IMG/VR virus record: IMGVR_UViG_3300036715_001328
Span: 1 to 38,636 of that record
Reading direction: 5' to 3' (one strand)
DNA from: a virus
DNA length: 38,636 nucleotides
Every line of letters starts with the position of its first letter. Position 1 is the stretch's first letter. Below, piece after piece: positions 7,399-38,636 of the stretch. Both the position numbers and the translations under genes were made by a program. The notes beneath the pieces are model-generated. The model saw only the letters and a list, made by a program, of their open reading frames with translations, made no database searches and was not told the origin of the DNA.

Positions 7399-9612
7399 AT
7401 GAGAGACCTGCCAGAAATCAGCAAGACCATCTGGGACATGAAATATCGCTTCACGCCCGAAGATGGCGCGGGCGACCTGACGATGCAGGACACTTGGCAC
7501 CGTGTCGCCAAGGCGCTGGCACGGGGCAACCCGAACCGGCAATCCGCGTTCTTTGAGGAAATGAACTCCGGACGCTTCCTGCCCGCAGGTCGGATCATCA
7601 GCGGGGCCGGGACCGGGCGGCGGGTGACGCTGGTCAACTGCTTCGTCTCGGGCACCATTCCCGACGACATGGGCGGCATCTTCGACAGGCTCAAGGAGGC
7701 TGCGCTGACCATGCAGCAGGGCGGCGGTATCGGGATGGACTTCTCCACCCTGCGCCCCAAGGGGGCCAAGGTCAAAGGGGTTGGTGCGCAGGCCAGCGGA
7801 CCTTTGCCGTTCATGGACACTTGGGACGCCATGTGCCGCACGATCATGTCGGCGGGGGCGCGGCGTGGGGCCATGATGGGTGTTCTGCGCTGTGACCACC
7901 CGGACATCGAGGCCTTCATCGACGCCAAGCGTGACCGGACACGGCTGCGCATGTTCAACGTCTCCGTAGCCGTGACAGATGCTTTCATGGACGCCGTGGC
8001 GGGGGACTTCGAGTGGCCCCTGGTGTTCAATGGCGAGGTCTACAAGACGGTGCAGGCCAAGGCGCTGTGGGACCGCATCATGCGAGCGGCCTATGACTGC
8101 GCGGAGCCAGGGGTGCTGTTCATCGACCGGATCAACGAGGGCAACAACCTGCGCGGGATCGAGGAGATCGCGGCCACGAATCCGTGCGGGGAACAGCCCC
8201 TCGGACCCTACGGGGCTTGTGTCCTCGGCTCGCTGAACCTTGCGCAGTTCATTGAGCACCCGTTCACGGGAAATAAGCTCATTAGCGCCAGCCAGGTTCG
8301 GAGCAGTACCCGGCTTGCAGTGCAGATGCTGGACGCGGTGAACGACGTGTCCGGGTTTCCGCTGTTGAAGCAGGCTGAGGCGGCTCAGGCTAACCGACGG
8401 ATCGGGCTAGGCGTCACCGGAGTTGCCGACGCTCTTGCCATGTACGGGCTCACCTATGGGTCCGAGGAAGCGCAGAGTTGGCTATCAGAGATCATGGCCG
8501 CAATTTCGGAAGAAGCCTACTCCGAGTCGGAGTGCATGGCCGCGGAGTATGGTCCTTTCCCGAACTTCTACCCCAGCGTAGCCGCCGACCTGTCCAAGAC
8601 CTACGCGGGCAAGCGCTCCGCGCCCCGGCGCAACTCGCATCTCCTGTCCATCGCGCCCACGGGGACGATCAGCCTGCTTGCGGGCAACGTGTCCAGCGGG
8701 ATCGAACCCATCTTTGCCTTGGACTATGAGCGCAAGGTGACACAGGCGGACGGGTCCAAGGTGACCGAGTTGGTAGAGGATTACGCGGTCAGGCTCTATC
8801 GGCAGATGTTCCCCGGCAAGCCGCTGCCCGATTACTTCGTGACCGCGCAAGACCTGGAGCCCGGGGCACATCTGGTGATGCAAGCGGCTGCGCAGCGGCA
8901 TGTGGACAGCGCGGTAAGCAAGACGATCAACCTGCCTGCGTCGATCAGCTTCGAGGACTTCGCTCGTGTCTACACGAGAGCATGGCGGCTGGGGTGCAAG
9001 GGCTGCACGGCCTACCGTCCCAACGACGTGACAGGCTCGGTCCTGAGCGTCACGGAGACGGCCAAGGAGGGCGCTCCTGCTGTAGGGGCTACCGATGCAG
9101 CCGCCGAGGGAGATATGCCTCCCAGCGGCCCGCTGAGTGAGCGACCGAGGGTGCTGAGTGGCAAGACCTACAAGCTGCGGTTCGGCGCGGCGCCCCATGC
9201 CTCCTACATCACCGTAACAGACATGGAGAAAGACGGACAGCACCGCCCCTACGAGGTGTTCCTCTCCAGCAAGGGCGTGGAGCATCAGGCGTGGACGATG
9301 GCGCTGACCCGCATGATCTCGGCGGTGTTCCGGCGCGGCGGCGACGTGTCCTTCGTGGCCGAGGAGCTTGCCCAGATCGCGGACCCGATGGGCGGCGCGT
9401 GGATGGATGGGGCGTATGTGCCATCCGAGGTGGCCGCGATTGGCCGTATCCTCAAGGAGCACATGGGCCTTGCGGAGCCAATGCCCGCGCCGCTGCCCGA
9501 GGCTCCATCCGAGCGACCCGGACCGGGCTGCCCAGCCTGTGGAGGGCACAACATGCGCAACGAGAGCGGGTGCCTGACCTGCCCGGATTGCGGCTACAGC
9601 AAGTGTGGCTGA
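7399..9612 (+). CDS. nrdJ: Class II (adenosylcobalamin-dependent) ribonucleotide reductase
   Basis: 737 residues from the ATG at 7399; GGAGG lies 7 bases upstream, while a GTG at 7393 overlaps the helicase stop. Converts ribonucleotides to deoxyribonucleotides for phage DNA synthesis. Visible: NPCGE with Asn261, Cys263 (thiyl radical) and Glu265; the redox pair Cys81 (NCF) and Cys274 (11 residues after Cys263, as in NrdJ); GCKGCTAYRPN typical of the barrel end; a TSCPD-like region about 590-690; and a C-terminal CPAC...CLTCPDCGYSKC Cys cluster (zinc ribbon/redox tail). Class II enzymes need no oxygen and no small subunit, and none is encoded. Last gene of the rightward unit; it converges on the leftward unit 3 bases away. 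Confidence 0.96.
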   Translation: MRDLPEISKTIWDMKYRFTPEDGAGDLTMQDTWHRVAKALARGNPNRQSAFFEEMNSGRFLPAGRIISGAGTGRRVTLVNCFVSGTIPDDMGGIFDRLKEAALTMQQGGGIGMDFSTLRPKGAKVKGVGAQASGPLPFMDTWDAMCRTIMSAGARRGAMMGVLRCDHPDIEAFIDAKRDRTRLRMFNVSVAVTDAFMDAVAGDFEWPLVFNGEVYKTVQAKALWDRIMRAAYDCAEPGVLFIDRINEGNNLRGIEEIAATNPCGEQPLGPYGACVLGSLNLAQFIEHPFTGNKLISASQVRSSTRLAVQMLDAVNDVSGFPLLKQAEAAQANRRIGLGVTGVADALAMYGLTYGSEEAQSWLSEIMAAISEEAYSESECMAAEYGPFPNFYPSVAADLSKTYAGKRSAPRRNSHLLSIAPTGTISLLAGNVSSGIEPIFALDYERKVTQADGSKVTELVEDYAVRLYRQMFPGKPLPDYFVTAQDLEPGAHLVMQAAAQRHVDSAVSKTINLPASISFEDFARVYTRAWRLGCKGCTAYRPNDVTGSVLSVTETAKEGAPAVGATDAAAEGDMPPSGPLSERPRVLSGKTYKLRFGAAPHASYITVTDMEKDGQHRPYEVFLSSKGVEHQAWTMALTRMISAVFRRGGDVSFVAEELAQIADPMGGAWMDGAYVPSEVAAIGRILKEHMGLAEPMPAPLPEAPSERPGPGCPACGGHNMRNESGCLTCPDCGYSKCG

Positions 9613-9615
9613 GGG

Positions 9616-9816
9616 CTATGGCGCTGCGGGCTGATCGGCTTGCAGCGCCGCATAGGCTGCCGGGAACTGCGCGGCGTAGGCGGACCACATCGACGCCGCG
9701 TCCGGGAAGCTCTGCATGGGGGTGGAGTCTTCAAACGTCGTGGTCTGGCCCAAGCTGGTGATAACCGGTTGATCCCCGATGATGTAGAACCCTGCGGGTT
9801 TTTGTACGAGCGTCAT
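9616..9816 (-). CDS. Small protein after the fibre gene, 66 aa, unknown
   Basis: 66 residues beginning MTLVQKPAGFYIIGDQPV. The ATG at 9816 overlaps the stop of the upstream fibre gene (ATGA), so it is the last gene of the leftward unit; a longer frame reaching 9843 lies inside the fibre gene and is not preferred. Soluble, slightly acidic, ending in an Ala/Pro-rich tail. Small genes directly after fibre genes are sometimes fibre-assembly chaperones or fibre tips, but no family resemblance is visible. Overlaps a candidate terminator for the opposite strand. Confidence 0.6.
   Translation of the reverse strand: MTLVQKPAGFYIIGDQPVITSLGQTTTFEDSTPMQSFPDAASMWSAYAAQFPAAYAALQADQPAAP
9788..9803 (+). 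terminator. Candidate intrinsic terminator of the rightward (replication) transcript
   Basis: On the plus strand AACCC, a TGC loop and GGGTT form a 5-bp stem that runs straight into a tract of five T. It lies 176 bases beyond the nrdJ stop, inside the convergent 66-aa gene, and would stop read-through into the leftward unit. The stem is short, so strength is uncertain. Confidence 0.5.
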
Positions 9817-10850
9817 GCCGGGCCTCCATCCGTGATCACCCACGACCGCGCGGAAATCAGATTGGCCCGCGCCGCCGCCGAGGCCGTGCTGTACTTGGCA
9901 AGCCCGAAGTTCGGAGACAGTCCAGCAAAGGGAGTCTGGGCGTTCCAGTTGATCAGGGTCGCGTCATACTGCGCCGTGGTCATCTTCGAGCCGGTCGCGA
10001 AATTGGTCAGCGCGGTCGAGACGTTCAGGTGCGAGAGGTTGAACGACGAGACGTTCAGATTTGCCAAGGCAAAACAGTTGTTGAACATGTTCTGCATCGT
10101 GGTCACGGCGGCGGTGTTGAACGACGAGACGTTCAAGCTGGTCAGGGCAGAGCAGCTTCCAAACATATACGCCATCGTGGTCACGGCTGAGGTGTTGAGC
10201 GACGAGACGTTCAGGCTGGTCAGGGCAGAGCAGCCGCTGAACATATACGCCATCGTGGTAACGGCAGCGGTATTGAACGACGAGACGTCCAAGCTGGTCA
10301 GGGCAATGCAGTTGCTGAACATGACGTACGTCGAGGTCACGGCGGAGGTGTTGAACGACGAGACGTTCAGGCTGGTCAGGGCGGAGCAGCCGCTGAGCAT
10401 AGACGCCATCGTGGTCACGGCGGCGGTGTTCGTCGCCCCGGATACAAACGAGGTCATGTTCGAGCAGCCATAAAAGGCGCTGTTAAGGCGTGTCCACCCG
10501 ACAATGCCAAGCTGGGTAACACTGGTAACCTTGAGCTTGTCGCCCACGTTGTTGAAGTAGATGTTGGGGAAAGTCCCACGAACCTTGATCGTGTATGATC
10601 CCGCAGCCGCGTAGGTATGGGCCAGATTGGCGCTGTTGTAGGTGGTTACGGTAGATTTGGCGCTACCGTCGCCCCAGTCGATCTGCGCGTTGAACACCCC
10701 GACGTTCTGGCATGGGATCGTGAAGGACAGGCTTCCGGCGGTTACGGCGACAGTGAACACGAACGGGAATGGGCTGGACGAAGTGCTTTTCTTCTTTCCC
10801 CTGAGGCGAGTACTAAACTGCCTGTTCTTGGTTTTCGCCGTGATGCTCAT
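9813..10850 (-). CDS. Tail fibre / receptor-binding protein candidate: PKD-like domain plus BspA/DUF285-type repeats
   Basis: 345 residues. A basic, Ser-rich start is followed by a PKD-like beta domain (about 30-95, with IDWGDGSAKS and HTYAAAGSYTIKV). Six 26-residue repeats follow (about 125-275) around CSALTSLNVSSFNT and AVTTMAYMF, the pattern of BspA-like LRR/DUF285 surface proteins, each with one Cys in the same place. The C-terminal part (YDATLINWNAQTPF, LISARSWVITDGG) is the usual end of DUF285 chains. Such proteins bind host surfaces, and the position at the end of the late unit suits an adhesin. The structural fold is well supported; the receptor role is inference. Confidence 0.8.
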   Translation of the reverse strand: MSITAKTKNRQFSTRLRGKKKSTSSSPFPFVFTVAVTAGSLSFTIPCQNVGVFNAQIDWGDGSAKSTVTTYNSANLAHTYAAAGSYTIKVRGTFPNIYFNNVGDKLKVTSVTQLGIVGWTRLNSAFYGCSNMTSFVSGATNTAAVTTMASMLSGCSALTSLNVSSFNTSAVTSTYVMFSNCIALTSLDVSSFNTAAVTTMAYMFSGCSALTSLNVSSLNTSAVTTMAYMFGSCSALTSLNVSSFNTAAVTTMQNMFNNCFALANLNVSSFNLSHLNVSTALTNFATGSKMTTAQYDATLINWNAQTPFAGLSPNFGLAKYSTASAAARANLISARSWVITDGGPA

Positions 10851-11071
10851 CAGATTGCGAAGTACCTGAGTTCGACGGGGTAGATGCTGGTGTTCTTGTA
10901 GTACACCGTCAGGCCTGCGGAGATGATGACCTTCTCGTTGTTGGAGAAGGGTATGAAGGCCGTGTTGTCCGTGCTGAGATAGACAACCCCGGAAGCCGGG
11001 AAGAACAAACTGTCGGAAGCAAGGACTCCGGTGTTGCCGGAAGCGCCTGCGCTAAGGGATACGTTCGGCAT
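10850..11071 (-). CDS. Small beta-rich protein before the fibre gene, 73 aa
   Basis: 73 residues beginning MPNVSLSAGASGNTG, rich in Ser, Thr, Val and aromatic residues in an alternating beta-like pattern; no membrane segment. AGGAGG lies 6 bases before the start, and its stop overlaps the ATG of the fibre gene (TGATG). It may be a virion decoration or a fibre-attachment protein by position, but no family is recognised. Confidence 0.7.
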   Translation of the reverse strand: MPNVSLSAGASGNTGVLASDSLFFPASGVVYLSTDNTAFIPFSNNEKVIISAGLTVYYKNTSIYPVELRYFAI

Positions 11072-11101
11072 AGCTGCCTCCTGATAAGTTGCAAAACCCT
11101 A

Positions 11102-11338
11102 CTACGGGGCTCGGATCACGTCAATCAGCGCCGAGGCGCGGCTGGCCTCACACTGCCGCCCCCGCTTTTCCGCCAGGAGGGCCGAAGCAAGCTGCGCCTC
11201 CGTGGTGGGGGTAGGCCCGCCCCAGCCCGCGCAGCCGCGCAGCAGGGCCGGGGGCACGTCAGGGTGCAGGAACACCTGCGCCGTGGGCTGGGAACACGAG
11301 GCGAGCAGCATGAGACAGGTAAGGGCTGAGAGGGGCAT
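11102..11338 (-). CDS. Outer-membrane spanin lipoprotein (Rz1-like)
   Basis: 78 residues from the ATG at 11338. A short hydrophobic signal (MPLSALTCLMLL) ends in the lipobox LASC, so the mature protein would begin at that Cys as an outer-membrane lipoprotein. The mature part is Pro-rich with two later Cys, as in Rz1 proteins. It overlaps the end of the inner-membrane spanin gene by 80 bases in another frame, the classic overlapped Rz/Rz1 arrangement. With its partner it would fuse inner and outer membranes in the last lysis step, so the host has an outer membrane. Confidence 0.8.
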   Translation of the reverse strand: MPLSALTCLMLLASCSQPTAQVFLHPDVPPALLRGCAGWGGPTPTTEAQLASALLAEKRGRQCEASRASALIDVIRAP

Positions 11339-11618
11339 TACCCCCCTGTTGGGCGTCGATCTGGGCTTGCAGGGCAGCGGTCGCCGCATCGGCTTGGTCC
11401 TTCTGTGCAAGATAGGCGCTTTCGGCCCGGTCAGCGGCTACGCGCCATTGTGCCACGGCGGCTGCGGTGCGCGCGTTCGCAGCGGCCAGAGCCGCCGCCG
11501 TTGCCTGAGCGTCGAAGCGGGCGCGGTAAAGCCAGCCCCCGGCGAAGGATGTGGCCCCGATCAGCGCGCAGGCCGCGACGGTTCGCAGAAGCCCGCTGAC
11601 CCCGAGGACGCCCAGCAC
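11259..11618 (-). CDS. Inner-membrane spanin (Rz-like)
   Basis: 119 residues from a GTG at 11618. One N-terminal membrane helix (about residues 12-31, RTVAACALIGATSFAGGWLY) is followed by a long Ala/Gln/Asp-rich helix or coiled coil (about 36-90) reaching into the periplasm: the Rz/i-spanin layout. Length and overlap with the lipoprotein gene agree. It follows the lysozyme and a 70-aa gene, completing the lysis cassette. Confidence 0.8.
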   Translation of the reverse strand: MLGVLGVSGLLRTVAACALIGATSFAGGWLYRARFDAQATAAALAAANARTAAAVAQWRVAADRAESAYLAQKDQADAATAALQAQIDAQQGGNAPLSPYLSHAARLVFPAHGAGVPAP

Positions 11619-31883: not shown

Positions 31884-31935
31884 AGCACAACTCTCTCCGC
31901 GCACGTAACAGCCGCACACATGATCTGTTAGTCAA

Positions 31936-31996
31936 ATTTATTGATATTATATATATATATCTTATAGTAATACAAAATAATATATTATCAATAAAT
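31936..31996. repeat. AT-rich inverted repeat at the core of the candidate origin
   Basis: ATTTATTGATA (31936-31946) and TATCAATAAAT (31986-31996) are perfect 11-bp inverted copies separated by 39 bases made almost wholly of A and T, including a run of alternating TA. This is the lowest-stability point in the genome and a plausible unwinding element. Confidence 0.65.
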
Positions 31997-32006
31997 CTGA
32001 GCAACA

Positions 32007-32044
32007 GTACGCGCGCGCAGCTGCGCGCCTGCGCGCCCGCGTAC
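32007..32044. repeat. GC-rich inverted repeat with nested 16-bp palindrome
   Basis: GTACGCG (32007-32013) and CGCGTAC (32038-32044) bracket a run of alternating GC containing the perfect palindrome GCGCGCAGCTGCGCGC (32013-32028). It lies directly next to the AT-rich repeat, so a very stable and a very unstable element are side by side. Confidence 0.6.
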
Positions 32045-32151
32045 GCGTAGGAGGAAGAAAGCTAACAAAATCAAACACTTATAATTATTTACAATTTAGT
32101 TTACAACCCCCTACCAAACGCGACGCCAAAGACCCCCTCCAAGGTAGCAAT

Positions 32152-32173
32152 GTGATAAACAAAATTGTATCAC
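32152..32173. promoter_or_regulatory. Small dyad before the rightward unit
   Basis: GTGATA (32152-32157) and TATCAC (32168-32173) are perfect inverted copies around 10 A/T-rich bases. Between here and the first rightward gene a weak promoter can be drawn (TTGCGC, 16 bases, TATACC ending near 32226), so the dyad could be its control site. Confidence 0.35.
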
Positions 32174-32259
32174 TAAATGTTACAAGGTAAGAGTAAGTAT
32201 TGCGCCCCTCCCCACTCCGTGTATACCTGCCCTGATAAAACGCAACCGTGGAGCAAATT

Positions 32260-32490
32260 ATGACCACCAACGACGCGACCGACCTGACCAAAGCAGAAGC
32301 CTACGCCGCCTTCGAGGCCACCGACACTGCTTGGCAAGCGGAACTCACACGCGTGTTTGGCAAAGACGCCTATGTGGCTCGGTATCTCAAAGATGGGCGT
32401 GGAACATTTGAAGACGCACTCGGGGTGGCTTTTCTTGCCCGCGACAAGGCGCGCCTGATCGCAGAGCAATTCATCGGGCAGCAAGGATGA
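32260..32490 (+). CDS. First rightward gene, 76-aa soluble protein, unknown
   Basis: 76 residues from the ATG at 32260 (GGAGC 5 bases upstream; an in-frame GTG at 32248 lies before the ribosome site). Begins MTTNDATDLTKAEAYAAFEA; helical and acidic, with an aromatic middle (VFGKDAYVARYLKDGRGTFE). The ribosome site and first 12 codons are nearly identical in DNA to those of dnaN (33464-33508), although the rest of the two proteins is unrelated. As the first gene after the control region it is probably made earliest and may act in host takeover or regulation. No family recognised. Confidence 0.65.
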   Translation: MTTNDATDLTKAEAYAAFEATDTAWQAELTRVFGKDAYVARYLKDGRGTFEDALGVAFLARDKARLIAEQFIGQQG

Positions 32491-32642
32491 CGAAGATGCT
32501 GACCATCTGTGCCCCTTCCGCCCTTGCCTGCCACCTTCACACAGCCACTGCGGCTATGAGCGGCCCCGCGCTGCCCTCCGCTGCCATACTGTCTGCCCTC
32601 GCCATTGCCTTCACACTCTCAACCCTCTGGAGCAAATCATGA
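32487..32642 (+). CDS. Membrane microprotein ending in the shared WSKS junction, 51 aa
   Basis: 51 codons beginning MTKMLTICAPSALACHLH, with a C-terminal hydrophobic helix (ALPSAAILSALAIAFTLSTL). The ATG overlaps the previous stop (ATGA). The last codons, Trp-Ser-Lys-Ser-stop, contain the GGAGC ribosome site and the overlapping ATG of the next gene, an LRR protein. The same ending recurs in the 31-aa gene at 35186. It may be a genuine membrane peptide or mainly a translational coupling frame. Confidence 0.55.
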   Translation: MTKMLTICAPSALACHLHTATAAMSGPALPSAAILSALAIAFTLSTLWSKS

Positions 32643-33307
32643 CCCCCAACGACTGGGCTATCCTCGCCAAATACGGAGTCACCCCTGACAACCTCGATGT
32701 AGGGGGAGATCTCGGTCTATCCTATTGCGCCAGCCTGCCCGAGGGGATCAGCATGGGTGGCTCGATACAGTTCCCCTATTGCGCCGACCTTACCAGCCTG
32801 CCCAAGGGGCTCAGAGTGGGTGGCTCGCTCTACCTCTACGGCTGCGCCGACCTTACCAGCCTGCCCAAGGGGCTCAGAGTGGGGGGCTTCCTCGATCTAT
32901 CCTATTGCTCCGGTCTGACCAGCCTGCCAGAGGGGCTCAGAGTGGGAGGCTCGCTCTGGCTAAACGGCTGCACCGGGCTGACCGGCCTGCCAGAGGGGCT
33001 GCACGTGGGTGGCGCGCTCTACCTCTCCGGATGCACCGGTCTTACCAGTCTGCCAGAGGGGCTCAGAGTGCGTGGCTCGCTCTGGCTCAACGGCTGCACC
33101 GGTCTCACCAGCCTGCCAGAGGGGCTCAGAGTGGGCAGATCGCTCAACCTATTCGGCTGTACCGGTCTGACCAGCCTGCCCGAGGGGCTCAGAGTGGGGG
33201 GCGCGCTCAACCTACTCCGCTGCACCGGCCTGACCAGCCTGCCCAAGGAGATGAGCGTGGGCGGGCGTACCCTCGGCGCTGACCACTTGAGATGGAGCAA
33301 ATCATGA
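32639..33307 (+). CDS. Leucine-rich-repeat solenoid protein 1, 222 aa
   Basis: 222 residues. A short N-terminal cap (MTPNDWAILAKYGVTPDNL) is followed by about nine 21-residue repeats with the pattern GLTSLPEGLRVGG then SLxLxGCT, each with one Cys, and a C-terminal cap ending RWSKS. LPEGL-type repeats form a curved or beta solenoid, and the single Cys per repeat would stack in a column. No signal peptide or membrane segment, so probably cytoplasmic and protein-binding. The first repeat is 3 residues short. One of four related genes in 32.6-36.8 kb. Role unknown; inhibition or redirection of a host protein is conceivable. Confidence 0.85.
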   Translation: MTPNDWAILAKYGVTPDNLDVGGDLGLSYCASLPEGISMGGSIQFPYCADLTSLPKGLRVGGSLYLYGCADLTSLPKGLRVGGFLDLSYCSGLTSLPEGLRVGGSLWLNGCTGLTGLPEGLHVGGALYLSGCTGLTSLPEGLRVRGSLWLNGCTGLTSLPEGLRVGRSLNLFGCTGLTSLPEGLRVGGALNLLRCTGLTSLPKEMSVGGRTLGADHLRWSKS

Positions 33308-33444
33308 CCACCAACGACTGGTCTATCCTCGCCAAGTATGGAGTCACCCCGGATAGCCTCGACGTGGAGGGCTCGCTATGGCTCTTCGGCTGCCCCAGCC
33401 TGACCAGTCAGCCGGACAACCTCAGCGTTGGCGGAAAAATTTAA
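33304..33444 (+). pseudogene. Degenerate LRR paralogue with one repeat and an early stop
   Basis: The 46-codon frame begins MTTNDWSILAKYGVTPDSL, the same cap as its paralogues, has one repeat (SLWLFGCPSLTSQPDNLSVGG) and stops at TAA (33442-33444). Beyond the stop the same frame continues GPNHLTRSKS to a TGA that overlaps the dnaN ATG, matching the ADHLRWSKS end of LRR protein 1. So an ancestral LRR gene has lost most repeats and gained a nonsense codon 11 codons before its original end. It may still be translated as a short peptide and still provides the ribosome site for dnaN. Confidence 0.75.
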
Positions 33445-33473
33445 GGCCCTAACCACCTTACCAGGAGCAAATC

Positions 33474-34523
33474 ATGACCACCTGCAACGCGACCGACCTG
33501 ACCAAAGCCCTGCGTCTCCTCAAGCCGCTGATCTGGGCCAAGGGGTCAATCCCGATCCTGAAATGTGTCCACTTGTCTGCGCAGGACGGGCACCTGTCCA
33601 TCACCGCAACCGACCTTGATGCCGAGATGACCACGACCATTGAGGCATCCGGCGATCTGTCGCCCTGCGTTCTCCCCCATGCTGACCTCATGGCAGTCCT
33701 CAAGGGGGTCAAGGGAAACGTCACACTGGCCGAGGATGGAGCCTTTACCGCTGAGGGCACTACGGCTCAGCTGACGCCTCTGTCAGTGGAGGACTGGCCC
33801 TCCATGTTCATGGGCAAGGAAACTGCACCCGCAGCGACGTGGCCTTGCGACGGCGCGGTGTTCCGTTCAGCACTGGAGCTTGCCTCTCGCGCCATGTCGA
33901 GCGAGGAAACACGCTATTACCTGCGAGGCGTGTTCTTCGACCCTCCGCGCCCCGGCTGCCCTGCACGCATGGTTGCGACGGATGGGCATGTCCTGGCCTA
34001 CCATGCCCTGCCAGAGGACTACCCGGACACCGCCCCCGAATCTATCCTCCCAAGGGAAAGCGTGGCTCTTGCTCTGGCCGCAATCCCGGCCAAGGGTGTT
34101 CCACCCGTACACGTCCAGTTTTACCCCAGCCGCATGACGATCACCTGCGGCGAGGCTGTCATCCGATCCAAGCTGATCGACGGAACTTTCCCAGACTACC
34201 GCCGCGTCGTCCCAGCCCAAGACAACGCCATGCATATAGACCTGGCAGCTGGAGATGTGCAGAGGATCAAGATCCTTGCTACCAGGGATCAGGCGCGCGT
34301 CATCATCGACCCTGCCAACGGCACGGCGACACATACACTCCGGACCCTCGCCCTGATCCCCGGCACCGGACAGCCCTTCGGCGTCAGCGGCATTCTTCTG
34401 CACCGCCTGCTGGGCTCCGAGGACGCTACCTTGTCCAACAACGATAAGCGAGGCGATCCGATCCGCGTAACCTGGCCGCATCGGCCAGAGGCTCTGGGCG
34501 TCATCATGTCCATGACGATTTGA
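33474..34523 (+). CDS. dnaN: DNA polymerase III beta subunit-like sliding clamp
   Basis: 349 residues (E. coli DnaN has 366). Diagnostic segments: SSEETRYYLRGVFF (142-155), MVATDGHVLAYH (166-177, the family's VATDGHRLA motif), SKLIDGTFPDYRRVVP (232-247), and the hydrophobic C-terminus GVIMSMTI corresponding to the VMPMRL end that lines the protein-binding groove. The clamp would tether a polymerase or other partner to DNA. The phage polymerase is family A, so the clamp may serve it, recruit host repair factors, or compete with the host clamp. It shares ribosome site and first codons with the 76-aa gene at 32260 and lies between LRR genes. Confidence 0.9.
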   Translation: MTTCNATDLTKALRLLKPLIWAKGSIPILKCVHLSAQDGHLSITATDLDAEMTTTIEASGDLSPCVLPHADLMAVLKGVKGNVTLAEDGAFTAEGTTAQLTPLSVEDWPSMFMGKETAPAATWPCDGAVFRSALELASRAMSSEETRYYLRGVFFDPPRPGCPARMVATDGHVLAYHALPEDYPDTAPESILPRESVALALAAIPAKGVPPVHVQFYPSRMTITCGEAVIRSKLIDGTFPDYRRVVPAQDNAMHIDLAAGDVQRIKILATRDQARVIIDPANGTATHTLRTLALIPGTGQPFGVSGILLHRLLGSEDATLSNNDKRGDPIRVTWPHRPEALGVIMSMTI

Positions 34524-34533
34524 GGAGGAAATC

Positions 34534-34881
34534 ATGACCAGAGAGGAAATCTTTGACAAGGCAATCCTTGGCCTCATGGCGCAAGGAAAGCTGGGGAGGC
34601 GCGGCAAGTTCTGGAACTCCTACACCGACGGCTGCGCGATCGGTCAGTTGATGGCAGAGGAGCAGCGCATCAAGTATGACGAAGCCAGGTGCGCCTTTGT
34701 TGAAAATATCGTTCGGGACTTCCCTAATGATAAGCTGGCGCTGGAACTAGCCCCAGAAACTGAATTCTGCGCCGAGCTGCAATTTGCACATGACGTCGCA
34801 GATGACCTTTGTGACTTCATCAAGCAGGCCAAGCAACTTGCCACGAAGTACAACCTCACGTTTCCTGGAGAACTGAAATGA
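34534..34881 (+). CDS. Uncharacterised early protein with CAIGQLM motif, 115 aa
   Basis: 115 residues; strong AGGAGG ribosome site 5 bases before the ATG. Begins MTREEIFDKAILGLMAQG and contains the segment YTDGCAIGQLMAEEQ, a Cys-Ala-Ile-Gly motif that recurs in small uncharacterised phage and plasmid proteins. Helical, acidic, soluble, with three further Cys. Its stop overlaps the next start (ATGA). Function unknown. Confidence 0.7.
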   Translation: MTREEIFDKAILGLMAQGKLGRRGKFWNSYTDGCAIGQLMAEEQRIKYDEARCAFVENIVRDFPNDKLALELAPETEFCAELQFAHDVADDLCDFIKQAKQLATKYNLTFPGELK

Positions 34882-35189
34882 CCGAGAAGAAGTACAAGAC
34901 CGTGCTGTGTGGTAACGAAGCCAAGCTCTTGGACGGCAACATGGGCGGCGATCTTCCACTTCTGTGGAAAGTGAACAATGGCAATAATTGGATCACCATG
35001 CAGACCGACCGCGATTTTACGTATTACGGTGTACCTTATATCGTCGAGGTCCGCGAGCCCCGAACGCGATGGATAAACGAGTATCCAACTGGTCTTTCAC
35101 AAGTTAATTATGATTCTAAAGAAGAGGCTGATTTGTCAGCAACATCTAACCGCATCGCCTGTCATGCCTTTCAGATGGTGGTGAAATGA
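34878..35189 (+). CDS. Hypothetical early protein of lower GC content, 103 aa
   Basis: 103 residues beginning MTEKKYKTVLCGNEAKLL, mixed charge, Tyr/Trp/Asn-rich (LLWKVNNGNNWITMQ, FTYYGVPYIVEVREP). The gene uses many A/T-ending codons, for instance across 35010-35140, unlike its G/C-ending neighbours, suggesting recent acquisition. ATGA overlaps join it to both neighbours. No family recognised. Confidence 0.65.
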   Translation: MTEKKYKTVLCGNEAKLLDGNMGGDLPLLWKVNNGNNWITMQTDRDFTYYGVPYIVEVREPRTRWINEYPTGLSQVNYDSKEEADLSATSNRIACHAFQMVVK

Positions 35190-35281
35190 CCACCTGCGAC
35201 GTCTCACCGGTCCTCGCCCTCGCCGCGGAACTTGTCCTCATCGTTGTCCTCGTCATCGTGATCATCTGGAGCAAATCATGA
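35186..35281 (+). CDS. 31-aa membrane microprotein ending in the shared WSKS junction
   Basis: 31 codons beginning MTTCDVSPVLALAAEL, then an unbroken hydrophobic helix (VLIVVLVIVIIW) and the end WSKS-stop. The start shares its first 12 bases with dnaN (MTTC). The stop overlaps the ATG of the next LRR gene, and the final codons contain the GGAGC ribosome site. It may be a membrane peptide or a coupling device; the strongly hydrophobic core argues for the former. Confidence 0.55.
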   Translation: MTTCDVSPVLALAAELVLIVVLVIVIIWSKS

Positions 35282-35892
35282 CCCCTGACGACTGGGCCCT
35301 CCTCGCCAAATACGGAGTCACCCCTGATAATCTCATCGTTGGCGGCGATCTCATCCTCTCCTGCTGCACCAGCGTTACCAGTTTGCCTGAGGGTCTGCAC
35401 GTTGGCGGATCACTATGGCTCTACGACTGCACCGGCCTTACCAGCCTGCCCGAGGGGCTGCACGTGGGTGGCTCGCTCGACCTATCCAACTGCACCGGCC
35501 TCACTCACCTGCCCGAGGGGCTGCACGTGGGTGGTTATCTCGACCTCACCGGCTGCACCGGCCTGACCAGCCTACCCAAGGGGCTCAGCGTGGATGGCTC
35601 ACTATCGCTTACCGGCTGCACCGGACTTACCAGCCTGCCCGAGGGGTTCAGAGTGGCTCGCTCGCTCGACCTCACCGGCTGCACCGGCCTGACTAGCCTG
35701 CCCAAGGGGCTCAGCGTGGATGGCTCACTATCGCTTACCGGCTGCACCGGCCTCACCAGCCTGCCCGAGGGGTTCCTCGTGTGGGGTGATCTCTGGCTCA
35801 CCGGCTGCACCAGCCTGACCAGCCTACCGGACAACCTCCGCGTGGGCGGGTACACCTATGCCCCTGACCACCTTATTAGGAGCGAAACATGA
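35278..35892 (+). CDS. Leucine-rich-repeat solenoid protein 2, 204 aa
   Basis: 204 residues with the same cap (MTPDDWALLAKYGVTPDNL) and eight Cys-bearing 21-residue repeats (GLTSLPEGLHVGG, SLDLSNCT and variants), ending APDHLIRSET. A two-repeat block has been duplicated in tandem (35545-35670 copied at 35671 onward). Overlaps the next LRR gene by 4 bases, with AGGAGC near its end as ribosome site. Predicted cytoplasmic. Same unknown role as its paralogues. Confidence 0.85.
   Translation: MTPDDWALLAKYGVTPDNLIVGGDLILSCCTSVTSLPEGLHVGGSLWLYDCTGLTSLPEGLHVGGSLDLSNCTGLTHLPEGLHVGGYLDLTGCTGLTSLPKGLSVDGSLSLTGCTGLTSLPEGFRVARSLDLTGCTGLTSLPKGLSVDGSLSLTGCTGLTSLPEGFLVWGDLWLTGCTSLTSLPDNLRVGGYTYAPDHLIRSET
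35545..35775 (+). repeat. 126-bp near-identical tandem duplication inside LRR gene 2
   Basis: The 126-bp block from 35545 (two 21-codon repeats) is followed directly by a copy from 35671 that stays nearly identical for about 105 bases, until 35775. Only a few, mostly silent, differences are seen. This is a recent unequal-crossover or slippage event that changed repeat number by two. Confidence 0.85.
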
Positions 35893-36821
35893 CCACCAAC
35901 GACTGGGCTATCCTTGCCAAATACGGAGTCATCCCTGATAATCTCAGCGTTGACGGCGATCTCGACTTCTCCGGCTGCACCAGCATTACCAGCCTGCCAG
36001 AGGGGCTCAGAGTGGGCGGCTCGTTCTGGCTCACCTGCTGCACCGGCCTGACCGGCCTGCCCGAGGGGCTGCGCGTTGGCGGCGATCTCGATCTATCCGA
36101 CTGCACCGGCCTAACCAGCCTGCCCGATGGGCTCAGCGTTAGCGGCGATCTCGACCTATCCGGCTGCACCGGCCTGACCAGCCTGCCCGATGGGCTCAGC
36201 GTTAGCGGCGATCTCTGGCTCACCGGCTGCACCGGCCTGACCAGCCTGCCCAAGGGGCTGCGCGTTGGCGGCGATCTCGGTCTATCCTATTGCACCGGCC
36301 TGACTAGCCTACCCGAGGGTCTGCATGTGGGGGGCTCACTATCGCTTATCAGCTGCACCGGCCTGACCAGCCTACCCGAGGGACTCAGAGTGGGCGGCTC
36401 ACTCTATCTAGTCCGCTGCACCGGCCTCACCCGCCTGCCCGAGGGGCTGCGCGTGGGTGGCTCGCTCTGGCTCACTGACTGCGCCAGCCTAACCAGGCTG
36501 CCCGAGGGTCTCAGAGTGGGTGGCTACCTCGACCTCTTAGGCTGCACCAGCCTGACCCGCCTGCCCGAGGGGCTCAGCGTGAGCGGTGATATCAGTCTAT
36601 CCTATTGCACCGGCCTGACCAGCCTGCCCGAGGGGTTCAGAGTGGCTCGCTCGCTCCGGCTCACCGGCTGCACCGGCCTCACCAGGCTGCCCAAGGGGCT
36701 GCGCGTTGGTGGTGATCTAGCCCTCTCCGGCTGCACCGGCCTCACCAGCCTGCCCGAGGGGCTCAGAGTAGGCGGGCGTATCCTCGGCGCTGACCACCTG
36801 ACATGGAGGCGACCAGCATGA
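35889..36821 (+). CDS. Leucine-rich-repeat solenoid protein 3, 310 aa
   Basis: The longest paralogue: cap MTTNDWAILAKYGVIPDNL, then thirteen 21-residue repeats with one Cys each (SGC, TCC, SDC, SGC, TGC, SYC, ISC, VRC, TDC, LGC, SYC, TGC, SGC), and the end GADHLTWRRPA. A block around 36630-36660 is identical in DNA to one in LRR gene 2 near 35640-35665 (encoding EGFRVARSL), pointing to exchange between paralogues. Its last codons contain GGAGG, the ribosome site for the overlapping membrane gene downstream. Predicted cytoplasmic solenoid; function unknown. Confidence 0.85.
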   Translation: MTTNDWAILAKYGVIPDNLSVDGDLDFSGCTSITSLPEGLRVGGSFWLTCCTGLTGLPEGLRVGGDLDLSDCTGLTSLPDGLSVSGDLDLSGCTGLTSLPDGLSVSGDLWLTGCTGLTSLPKGLRVGGDLGLSYCTGLTSLPEGLHVGGSLSLISCTGLTSLPEGLRVGGSLYLVRCTGLTRLPEGLRVGGSLWLTDCASLTRLPEGLRVGGYLDLLGCTSLTRLPEGLSVSGDISLSYCTGLTSLPEGFRVARSLRLTGCTGLTRLPKGLRVGGDLALSGCTGLTSLPEGLRVGGRILGADHLTWRRPA

Positions 36822-36988
36822 CAACACCTGAGCGCATCGGGCTCCACCTCCTCCTGGGGGTCATCATCCCGCCCTATGGGCTGCTTCTTGGCATGGTCGC
36901 GCCGTTCATGCTTCTAGCGGCCTATGACAAATGGGCTGAGGCCCACAATGACAGAAGAGCAAAGGAGAAAGCCAATGCCGGACATTGA
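36818..36988 (+). CDS. Small membrane protein after the LRR array, 56 aa
   Basis: 56 residues from the ATG at 36818 (GGAGG 8 bases upstream, inside the end of LRR gene 3; ATGA overlap). One long or two short hydrophobic segments (IGLHLLLGVIIPPYGLLLGM, VAPFMLLAAY) broken by a Pro-Pro pair, then a charged tail (EAHNDRRAKEKANAGH). A hairpin membrane protein is likely. Like other small genes here, it follows an LRR gene directly. Confidence 0.62.
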   Translation: MTTPERIGLHLLLGVIIPPYGLLLGMVAPFMLLAAYDKWAEAHNDRRAKEKANAGH

Positions 36989-37474: not shown

Positions 37475-38636
37475 ATGGACTTGGCGACTGAGCAGTTGGC
37501 ACGTTGGGGGATCACCCCGGCACAAGCGACAGAGGCAGCACTCTTCCCGGTGGATCATGCCTCCGAGGTGTACCGGGAAATGCCAGACTTCCCAGCAATC
37601 GTGATTCCCTACTTCGATGCCAATGGAGCGCAGGTCACATTCAAGCGCGACGGTCATCCGGTGCCCTACGCGCGCCTGCGCCTGCTGGGAGAGCCCCCAA
37701 AGTCCACATGGGTAAAGCGCCGCCCGCTGCGCTACCTCCAGCCCAAGGACACACCTGTGTTGCCCTACTACTGGCCCGGTGCTCCGTGGTCACAGATCAT
37801 GACGGACGCCACAACGCCGCTTCTGATCACAGAGGGCGAAGCCAAGGCCATTCGGGGCTGCATCGCAGGGTTCTCGGTCTTGGCACTGGGCGGCGTCTAC
37901 AACTTCACAACCCCCTCGGGCGCGCTCATACCGGCACTGGCCGAGGCGGTCTGGGAGGGCCGGGACACCTACATTGTCTATGACTCCGACGCGGCGACGA
38001 ACCCCCAGGTGATGGCAGCTGAGGCGCGCCTGATCGACCATTTGCAGCGTGAGCGCGGGGCGCGCTGCCGCATCGTGCGTCTGCCCCCTGGGCCGGATGG
38101 CTCAAAGGTGGGGTTGGACGACTTCATCAACACGCGGGGCGCGGGGGCACTGGAGCAACTGCTGGAGGGAGCGCCGCTCCTCGGCGCACTGGGCCGCAAG
38201 ATATTGGGCCTCAACCAGCATATCGCATGGATTCGCCGCGAAGGGCTGGTGTATGACATCAAGGCTCGCCTGTTCATGACCAAGGACAACCTCGTATCAG
38301 GAGAGTCCTATTCGAGCCTCAAGCACTGGGTCGCTGGAGCGAGCGAGCGCAGCGTGGGGAAGGAAATCAGTGTCGCTAAGGAGTGGCTGACAAGCCCCGG
38401 CGCGCAGAGATACGACGAGGTTCTTTTCCGGCCCGGCCAAGGTCCTGTGATCCAGGGGGAGGACGGCGCACAGGCGCTCAACCTGTTCACCGGGTTCCAA
38501 GCTATACCTGGCGACGTGAGCCCATTCCTGCGGCTCTCGGAGTATCTGTTCAGCGGCTTGCCACCGTCGCTCCGCGATCTGCCGATCAAGCTGATGGCCT
38601 ACAAGGCACAGCACCCGCAGATCAAGATTCCGCTGG
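37475..38636 (+). CDS. Primase-helicase, N-terminal part (TOPRIM-like primase domain); continues at 1-563
   Basis: The gene starts at the ATG at 37475 (AGGGG about 6 bases upstream) and continues past the circular join to 563, 553 residues in all. The N-terminal half has a DUF3854/TOPRIM-like arrangement: LLITEGEAKAIRG with Glu120 and Glu122, then TYIVYDSDAATN with Asp170 and Asp172, then VGLDDFI with Asp215-Asp216, matching the acidic metal-binding points of TOPRIM primases. The helicase domain follows (see 1-563). No N-terminal zinc finger is visible. It would prime and unwind at the phage replication fork. Confidence 0.87.
   Translation, partial: MDLATEQLARWGITPAQATEAALFPVDHASEVYREMPDFPAIVIPYFDANGAQVTFKRDGHPVPYARLRLLGEPPKSTWVKRRPLRYLQPKDTPVLPYYWPGAPWSQIMTDATTPLLITEGEAKAIRGCIAGFSVLALGGVYNFTTPSGALIPALAEAVWEGRDTYIVYDSDAATNPQVMAAEARLIDHLQRERGARCRIVRLPPGPDGSKVGLDDFINTRGAGALEQLLEGAPLLGALGRKILGLNQHIAWIRREGLVYDIKARLFMTKDNLVSGESYSSLKHWVAGASERSVGKEISVAKEWLTSPGAQRYDEVLFRPGQGPVIQGEDGAQALNLFTGFQAIPGDVSPFLRLSEYLFSGLPPSLRDLPIKLMAYKAQHPQIKIPL
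38574..38636. repeat. 63-bp terminal redundancy, identical to 1-63
   Basis: Bases 38574-38636 are identical to bases 1-63, and the primase-helicase frame is continuous when the two are merged. This marks a circular or circularly permuted molecule of 38,573 bp. The short length, ending inside a gene, suggests an assembly overlap rather than natural direct terminal repeats. Confidence 0.95.

Follow-up and report, generated by a model that had tools for sequence, protein, structure and literature searches.

Why should neighbouring phage genes of quite different kinds begin with nearly the same short sequence? The question is raised by the viral record IMGVR_UViG_3300036715_001328, analysed here at its full length of 38,636 bases (the window), in which an operon at 32250–36988 strings together leucine-rich repeat (LRR) genes, genes for microproteins and a dnaN-like sliding clamp gene. 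A sequence-only reading had earlier described a recurring stop/ribosome-site/start junction between these genes. Here, we find that this junction, which we call the joint, is a short repeat confined to the array; that two sister phages use different joints, each largely uniform; that genes have been replaced beyond orthologous joints; that the first gene of the operon and dnaN share the start of their coding sequences; and that the number of LRR genes differs between the two phages. With moderate confidence, we favour the view that the joint is a phage start-associated sequence (SAS), serving ordinary translation initiation and also acting, as a short homology, as a point of recombination or duplication within an accessory island. 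The joints of the window are as follows.

32250–32265, plus strand: joint copy 1, GGAGCAAATTATGACC, 15 of 16 positions; before the first gene of the operon, with no gene upstream
32629–32644, plus strand: joint copy 2, exact
33294–33309, plus strand: joint copy 3, exact
33464–33479, plus strand: joint copy 4, exact and intergenic
34524–34539, plus strand: joint copy 5, GGAGGAAATCATGACC, 15 of 16 positions; after the dnaN stop codon
35268–35283, plus strand: joint copy 6, exact
35879–35894, plus strand: joint copy 7, GGAGCGAAACATGACC, diverged
36804–36823, plus strand: far-diverged joint, TGGAGGCGACCAGCATGACA, before microprotein 3

The sequence GGAGCAAATCATGACC occurs exactly at 32629, 33294, 33464 and 35268, with one base changed at 32250 and 34524, and with two changed at 35879. 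All seven copies are on the plus strand, within 32250–35894; an open reading frame starts at each, and the rest of the genome has no copy. When up to three mismatches are allowed, eight matches are found in the window against 0.33 expected, and no shuffled sequence got to eight. The repeated unit consists of a ribosome site, with its Shine-Dalgarno core at normal spacing, a fixed spacer, the start codon and the second codon; likeness between copies stops 10–16 nt 5′ of the ATG. Because the upstream stop codon overlaps only some of the copies, the constant part being the start side, the joint is a start-side element and not a gene-end signature.

This changes the earlier description in several respects. 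The positions given there for the exact joints (32631–32642, 33295–33307, 33463–33476 and 35270–35281) and for the diverged one at 35879 stand, whereas the site at 36804–36821 (GGAGGCGACCAGCATGACA) is only loosely alike and too diverged to be recognised on its own. Joints at 32250 and 34524, and a divergent one before 34878 (GGAGAACTGAAATGACC, the leader of orfB, 34862–34895), had been overlooked. The Trp/Arg-Ser-Lys-Ser-stop ending ascribed to the genes is found as W-S-K-S-stop at 32642, 33307 and 35281, but the ends at 35892 and 36821 read R-S-E-T-stop and W-R-R-P-A-stop. At 33463–33476 there is no gene end at all; the LRR fragment stops earlier at a TAA, and R-S-K-S-stop is an in-frame remnant. 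An ordinary genome-wide ribosome-site consensus, which the sequence-only reading had named as the finding that would speak against it, is rejected: the joint is confined to the array, and none of the 27 listed candidate starts outside it carries one. Within the genome the joint belongs to non-structural genes, and the minus-strand portal, terminase and other late-side genes lack it.

To judge how unusual such a repeated leader is, start-like ATGs with a Shine-Dalgarno core and a separation of 100 nt or more were compared for identity of their 10-nt leaders. By this count the window has four copies of one leader and the 19.8-kb sister phage, L068, has three. Outside the array, neither the window nor any of 161 control loci has a 10-nt leader in more than two copies, and the same holds for 8-nt start leaders. 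The controls (2.1 Mb) comprise 74 mostly viral loci (0.60 Mb) and 87 mainly bacterial-genome loci (about 1.47 Mb), which had been retrieved for other purposes and do not form a random sample. Two candidate positive controls, lambda nin and TM4, do not score in the exact-leader count; the TM4 SAS has a variable spacer, with the GATAGGAG core present nine times in the stretch examined. A repeated leader is also present in two unrelated viral loci, both given in reverse-complement coordinates: L055:3496–4420 has the leader GGAGCAAATCATG three times, counting copies 72 nt apart, and L083:764–1563 has GGAGCAACTGACATG twice plus variants, L083 and L077 looking like one phage. L055 came from a scan selected for the 16-mer, and L077 and L083 from one selected for the L068 joint; such loci cannot serve to estimate a rate. 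Repeated start leaders may be common and uncatalogued.

Evidence on the history of the joint comes from comparing the genes of the array with those of L068. Gene calls are open reading frames, and those of the window's array are listed here.

32260–32490, plus strand: gene 1, 76 amino acids (aa), MTTNDATDLTKA...; its 5′ end is a near-copy of the dnaN 5′ end
32487–32642, plus strand: microprotein 1, 51 aa; its WSKS-stop end lies inside the joint
32639–33307, plus strand: LRR1, 222 aa; leucine-rich repeats of 21 residues (63 nt)
33304–33444, plus strand: LRR2 remnant, 46 aa; premature TAA
33474–34523, plus strand: dnaN-like sliding clamp, 349 aa; PF02767 2.4e-12, PF00712 5.6e-7, phrog_947 6e-41
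34534–34881, plus strand: orfA, 115 aa; L068 has a DUF6745 gene in the same slot
34878–35189, plus strand: orfB, 103 aa; leader GGAGAACTGAAATGACC
35186–35281, plus strand: microprotein 2, 31 aa; IIWSKS-stop end; dnaN-like start ATGACCACCTGC without the joint leader
35278–35892, plus strand: LRR3, 204 aa
35889–36821, plus strand: LRR4, 310 aa; predicted LRR solenoid with a helical N-cap, mean pLDDT 91.9
36818–36988, plus strand: microprotein 3, 56 aa, MTTPERIG...; 79% aa identity in L068

L068 is collinear with the window, with 83% nucleotide identity on the terminase side and 82.5% and 85% on the primase/polymerase side; at the protein level the polymerase is 93% and a 163-aa neighbour 81% identical. 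Searches for further relatives with dnaN, the 163-aa neighbour, the polymerase and an LRR query found only L068 to be close. EBPR podovirus 1, which matches the LRR query, was rejected as a relative, no homolog of the other array proteins being detectable at 1e-3. The island is the variable part of these otherwise collinear genomes. The dnaN of L068 (9045–10091) is 69% identical in amino acids and 72% in nucleotides, compared with 93% aa for the polymerase, and the L068 island contains a first gene, one LRR gene, dnaN, a DUF6745 gene, a 108-aa frame and the MTTPERIG microprotein. LRR3, LRR4 and microprotein 2 are extra in the window. The product of the L068 gene in the orfA slot (10107–11588; 493 aa) combines the DUF6745 domain with an extended series of four-residue repeats (QATA/QATY/QATD/LATA, in units of 12 nt).

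In L068 the joint is GGAGCAACTGACATGACC, present at the first gene, the LRR gene and dnaN (positions 8008, 8168 and 9033), with diverged forms at the microprotein (GGAGTAACTGACATGACG, 11998) and after dnaN (GGAGGCAGCTGACATGG, 10094). The sequence-only reading held that relatives with the same genes in fixed order but no shared joint would count against it; this is half true of L068, which keeps the framework and spells the joint differently. The orfB leader of the window, GGAGAACTGAAATGACC, is closer to the L068 joint than to that of its own genome, and is possibly a relic of an older joint spelling.

Several joints can be aligned across the two phages by their flanks. At dnaN both flanks are homologous (65/90 upstream, 82/90 downstream). 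At gene 1 only the upstream flank is (58/89), the genes themselves being unrelated; likewise, the joint after dnaN has a homologous upstream flank (69/85) and unrelated genes beyond it. At microprotein 3 it is the downstream flank that is homologous (75/90). The 12-nt leaders of gene 1, LRR1 and dnaN are five to six edits away from their orthologs and one to three edits from the other two window leaders; in L068, the leaders at the first gene, the LRR gene and dnaN are identical. A permutation of phage labels gives p=0.0019 with all 16 leaders, 0.009 with five sites per phage and 0.029 when the LRR genes are left out, these being all three versions run and each treating leaders as independent. 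At these orthologous sites, then, a joint is closer to the other copies in its own genome than to its counterpart in the sister, as expected under concerted evolution, here in two genomes only. The difference between the two spellings includes a 2-nt indel that alters the spacing, and every site would have had to undergo it. That an identical change arose independently at three or more sites is unlikely; either the spread of one change among the copies or selection on all of them would be needed.

A second line of evidence is the start that gene 1 shares with dnaN (33464–33508). Here 41 of 45 nucleotides are identical, in a block that runs from the joint to the end of codon 11; beyond it, identity falls to background. 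The stretch after the ATG (29/32) is equalled by 2 of 200,000 random ATG pairs from the window, and the two proteins are otherwise without visible similarity. The first gene of L068 has no dnaN-like stretch. A copied or recombined 5′ end would account for this block, and the need for a ribosome site would not. Between the window and L068, the first 30 codons of dnaN are 90–93% identical in nucleotides, and the rest mostly 60–80%; this well-conserved 5′ end fits a breakpoint, and equally fits strong constraint there. Microprotein 2 and dnaN have only ATGACCACCTGC in common, and not the leader, which may be chance.

The LRR genes form a third line. LRR1 to LRR4 have in common an N-cap, MTxxDWAxLAKYGVxPDNL or close to it (36–42 of 45 nucleotides after the ATG), and LRR1, LRR3 and LRR4 a C-terminal module around the 21-residue repeats. 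The LRR2 remnant (33304–33476) consists of the cap and the C-terminal module with hardly any repeats between; its TAA at 33442–33444 lies 10 codons before the old stop and about 20 bases before the joint, and the frame past the TAA still reads GPNHLTRSKS-stop, so that the C-terminal module remains readable. The regular 63-nt repeats and the confident model of LRR4 point to LRR solenoids; the best PDB matches of this model are mostly LRR proteins with low TM-scores and give no clue to function. A link between the joint and LRR genes in general is rejected, as the LRR genes of L094/L095 and L069 lack it. Related LRRs are found in gene 47 of Edwardsiella phage Edno5 and on Acetobacter and Deinococcus plasmids, some with DUF6745; the repeated joint is absent from the Edno5, L069 and L094 loci checked, and the capped LRR gene of L094 has another leader. 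The Acetobacter plasmids NZ_CP039845.2 and NZ_CP014688.1 match the LRR query in 38–40 separate places and carry large LRR gene sets.

These observations can be combined as follows. The joint, which most genes of the operon use, would in the first place serve ordinary translation initiation, stop and start overlapping wherever the stop codon of the preceding gene lies within it. The near-identity of the copies, some of which run on into coding sequence, would let them double as short homologies. LRR genes would duplicate together with their joints, single genes would be replaced between joints, and unequal recombination or short tracts of gene conversion would carry a change from one joint to the rest. 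We infer that the copies are kept alike by more than selection: recombination at short homologies, or duplication that takes the joint along, would maintain their likeness and also permit gene replacement. The earlier suggestion that units have been copied or swapped at the joints gains support from the L068 joints, the genes replaced past orthologous joints, the 41/45 block and the extra LRR genes. Rad52-like phage recombinases reportedly act on diverged homologies, the minimum for Red-beta being about 30 bp (PMC3945230). Both the 45-nt gene 1/dnaN block and the LRR joints with their caps exceed this length.

Several points weigh against this account. At 16 nt, the core falls short of the Red-beta minimum of roughly 30 bp. 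With only two genomes found, the joint of each phage has been observed in a single lineage. An annealing recombinase was not identified; the candidate at 981–1778 belongs to no named family, and its structure model is unusable (pLDDT 34). The window joint before microprotein 3 has not been homogenised, and the starts at 34878 and 35186 are without the joint. Finally, LRR duplication alone explains the joints at LRR1–LRR4.

Selection could produce uniform joints by itself, if there were one optimal coupled start site and each copy were independently held to the same initiation rate. The normally spaced Shine-Dalgarno core and the stop codons overlapped at several joints agree with this. So does the wider distribution of the exact 16-mer, which occurs in 60 viral stretches, nearly always singly, at the starts of unrelated genes of unrelated phages, 57 of its 61 matches opening at least 30 codons against 69% of background ATGACC. 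This same scatter of single matches before unrelated genes led us to reject the idea that the joint is a widespread mobile element. However, the spacer bases (AAATC or CAACTGAC) lie outside the Shine-Dalgarno core, are uniform in each phage and differ between the sisters; the leader is absent from other genes of this phage; and the gene 1/dnaN identity continues for about 30 nt beyond the ATG, in genes whose proteins are unrelated. We regard selection alone as an unlikely account.

A stronger form of the recombinational view would make the start site a reusable socket, in which annealing between identical elements continually homogenises them and brings about shuffling, duplication and replacement of the genes that follow them. 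Were this true, any gene entering the island would at once be correctly translated; we find it distinctly unlikely.

It is also conceivable, though improbable in our judgement, that a phage or host translational regulator, protein or RNA, binds the joint, co-evolves with it and controls the operon as a set. A joint that is uniform within a phage, different between phages and restricted to one operon would suit such a regulator, and the same option is left open for the start-associated sequences of cluster K (PMC3203893). Yet RNA folding at the joints is not significant (z-scores from −1.1 to 1.7), Rfam has no match there, no regulator was identified, and the dnaN codons in gene 1 would be left unexplained. 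Selection on a common start site, or binding by a regulator, may operate alongside copying.

Plain tandem duplication of an LRR unit with its own joints, the remaining joints being chance or weak similarity, draws on the four capped LRR genes with their C-terminal module and on the single LRR gene of the L068 island. It is quite improbable as the whole explanation: the joints before gene 1, dnaN and orfA precede non-LRR starts and still match at 15–16 of 16 positions, and in L068 the leader at these places is of the L068 type. Least credible of all is a dedicated system for the cassette exchange inferred in the sequence-only reading, here taken as integron-like, site-specific recombination at the joint. 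Uniform joints, gene replacement and the copy-number difference would fit it, but no integrase was recognised in the proteins scanned and no recombination-site structure or significant fold at the joints, the 16-mer elsewhere being nearly always single and unlinked to array genes.

The closest known parallels to the joint also differ from it. In the lambda ninR region, interlinked genes form an overlapping stop/start chain, and short shared sequences at lambdoid gene boundaries have been proposed as sites of gene replacement. The lambda nin starts, however, have no common 8-nt leader in the same exact test, and the genes are not LRR paralogs. Start-associated sequences proper are known from cluster K mycobacteriophages (PMC3203893) and cluster EF Microbacterium phages (PMC7302621), where they have been proposed as possible targets of homologous recombination. 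Like them, the joint is a short asymmetric sequence, nearly identical between copies, at the ribosome-site position of several unrelated genes in nearly always one orientation; it lies in the non-structural part of the genome, sometimes includes the upstream stop and is conserved beyond the needs of a ribosome site. It differs in sequence and number, with four exact and three near copies in one operon rather than 10–19 copies of GGGATAGGAGCCC or GGGAAAGGACCCC across half a genome. In TM4, moreover, the distance to the start codon varies, whereas the window joint includes the spacer, start and second codon within the repeat and changes between close relatives. The 17-bp imperfect inverted repeats of the extended cluster K element were not found at the joints, where similarity between copies ends 10–16 nt upstream of the ATG; the consensus of that linked element already varies between subclusters (PMC3203893). 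Beyond the known cases, the window adds a fixed spacer and start, shared 5′ codons and a comparison between phages. There is also a likeness to phage mosaicism by relaxed homologous recombination, in which diverged homology borders exchanged segments and is used by annealing proteins (PMC3945230). That exchange takes place between phages at pre-existing homology, whereas the homology proposed here is a repeat within one genome.

If the favoured account is right, this locus offers a concrete, testable case for the long-standing question of whether shared translation signals make phage gene borders into recombination points. The alternative view is that gene borders only look like recombination points because broken genes get lost. 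These sister phages, alike in their operon and each uniform in its own joint spelling, distinguish the two views better than one genome could. It would also tie an island of LRR and microprotein genes to gaining and losing members while keeping their expression.

As to the setting, the window is one viral record whose last 63 bases (38574–38636) repeat its first 63 (1–63), and because of this direct terminal repeat it is most likely a complete, circularly closed phage genome of 38.6 kb, with the primase gene split across the record ends. The minus strand encodes a P22-like portal and terminase; the plus strand encodes a DUF5906-type primase, a family A DNA polymerase, an SNF2-type helicase, a ribonucleotide reductase, and PD-(D/E)XK and VRR nucleases. 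The array sits between the terminase side and the primase. Just 5′ of the operon, at 31900–32160, an AT-rich non-coding stretch is followed by a CG-alternating tract, a candidate promoter or replication origin, and L068 has a stretch similar in kind at 7650–7960. A promoter-like site upstream of the array (31941–31968) is a consensus match only.

Among the products of the array, the clamp has both its N-terminal and central domains (PF00712, PF02767) above cut-off; gene 1 and microprotein 1 have no Pfam or PHROG match, and a comparison of the array proteins with defence systems gave no convincing match. Directly before the polymerase, 981–1778 encodes a 265-aa protein with conserved cysteines, 87% identical in L068, which by its position is possibly a single-strand DNA binding protein. 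Finally, a second, different LRR-like protein of the same phage is encoded on the minus strand near the late genes (9813–10850). It has DUF285/BspA-type leucine-rich repeats and a weak PKD match, and is possibly a fibre or receptor-binding protein.

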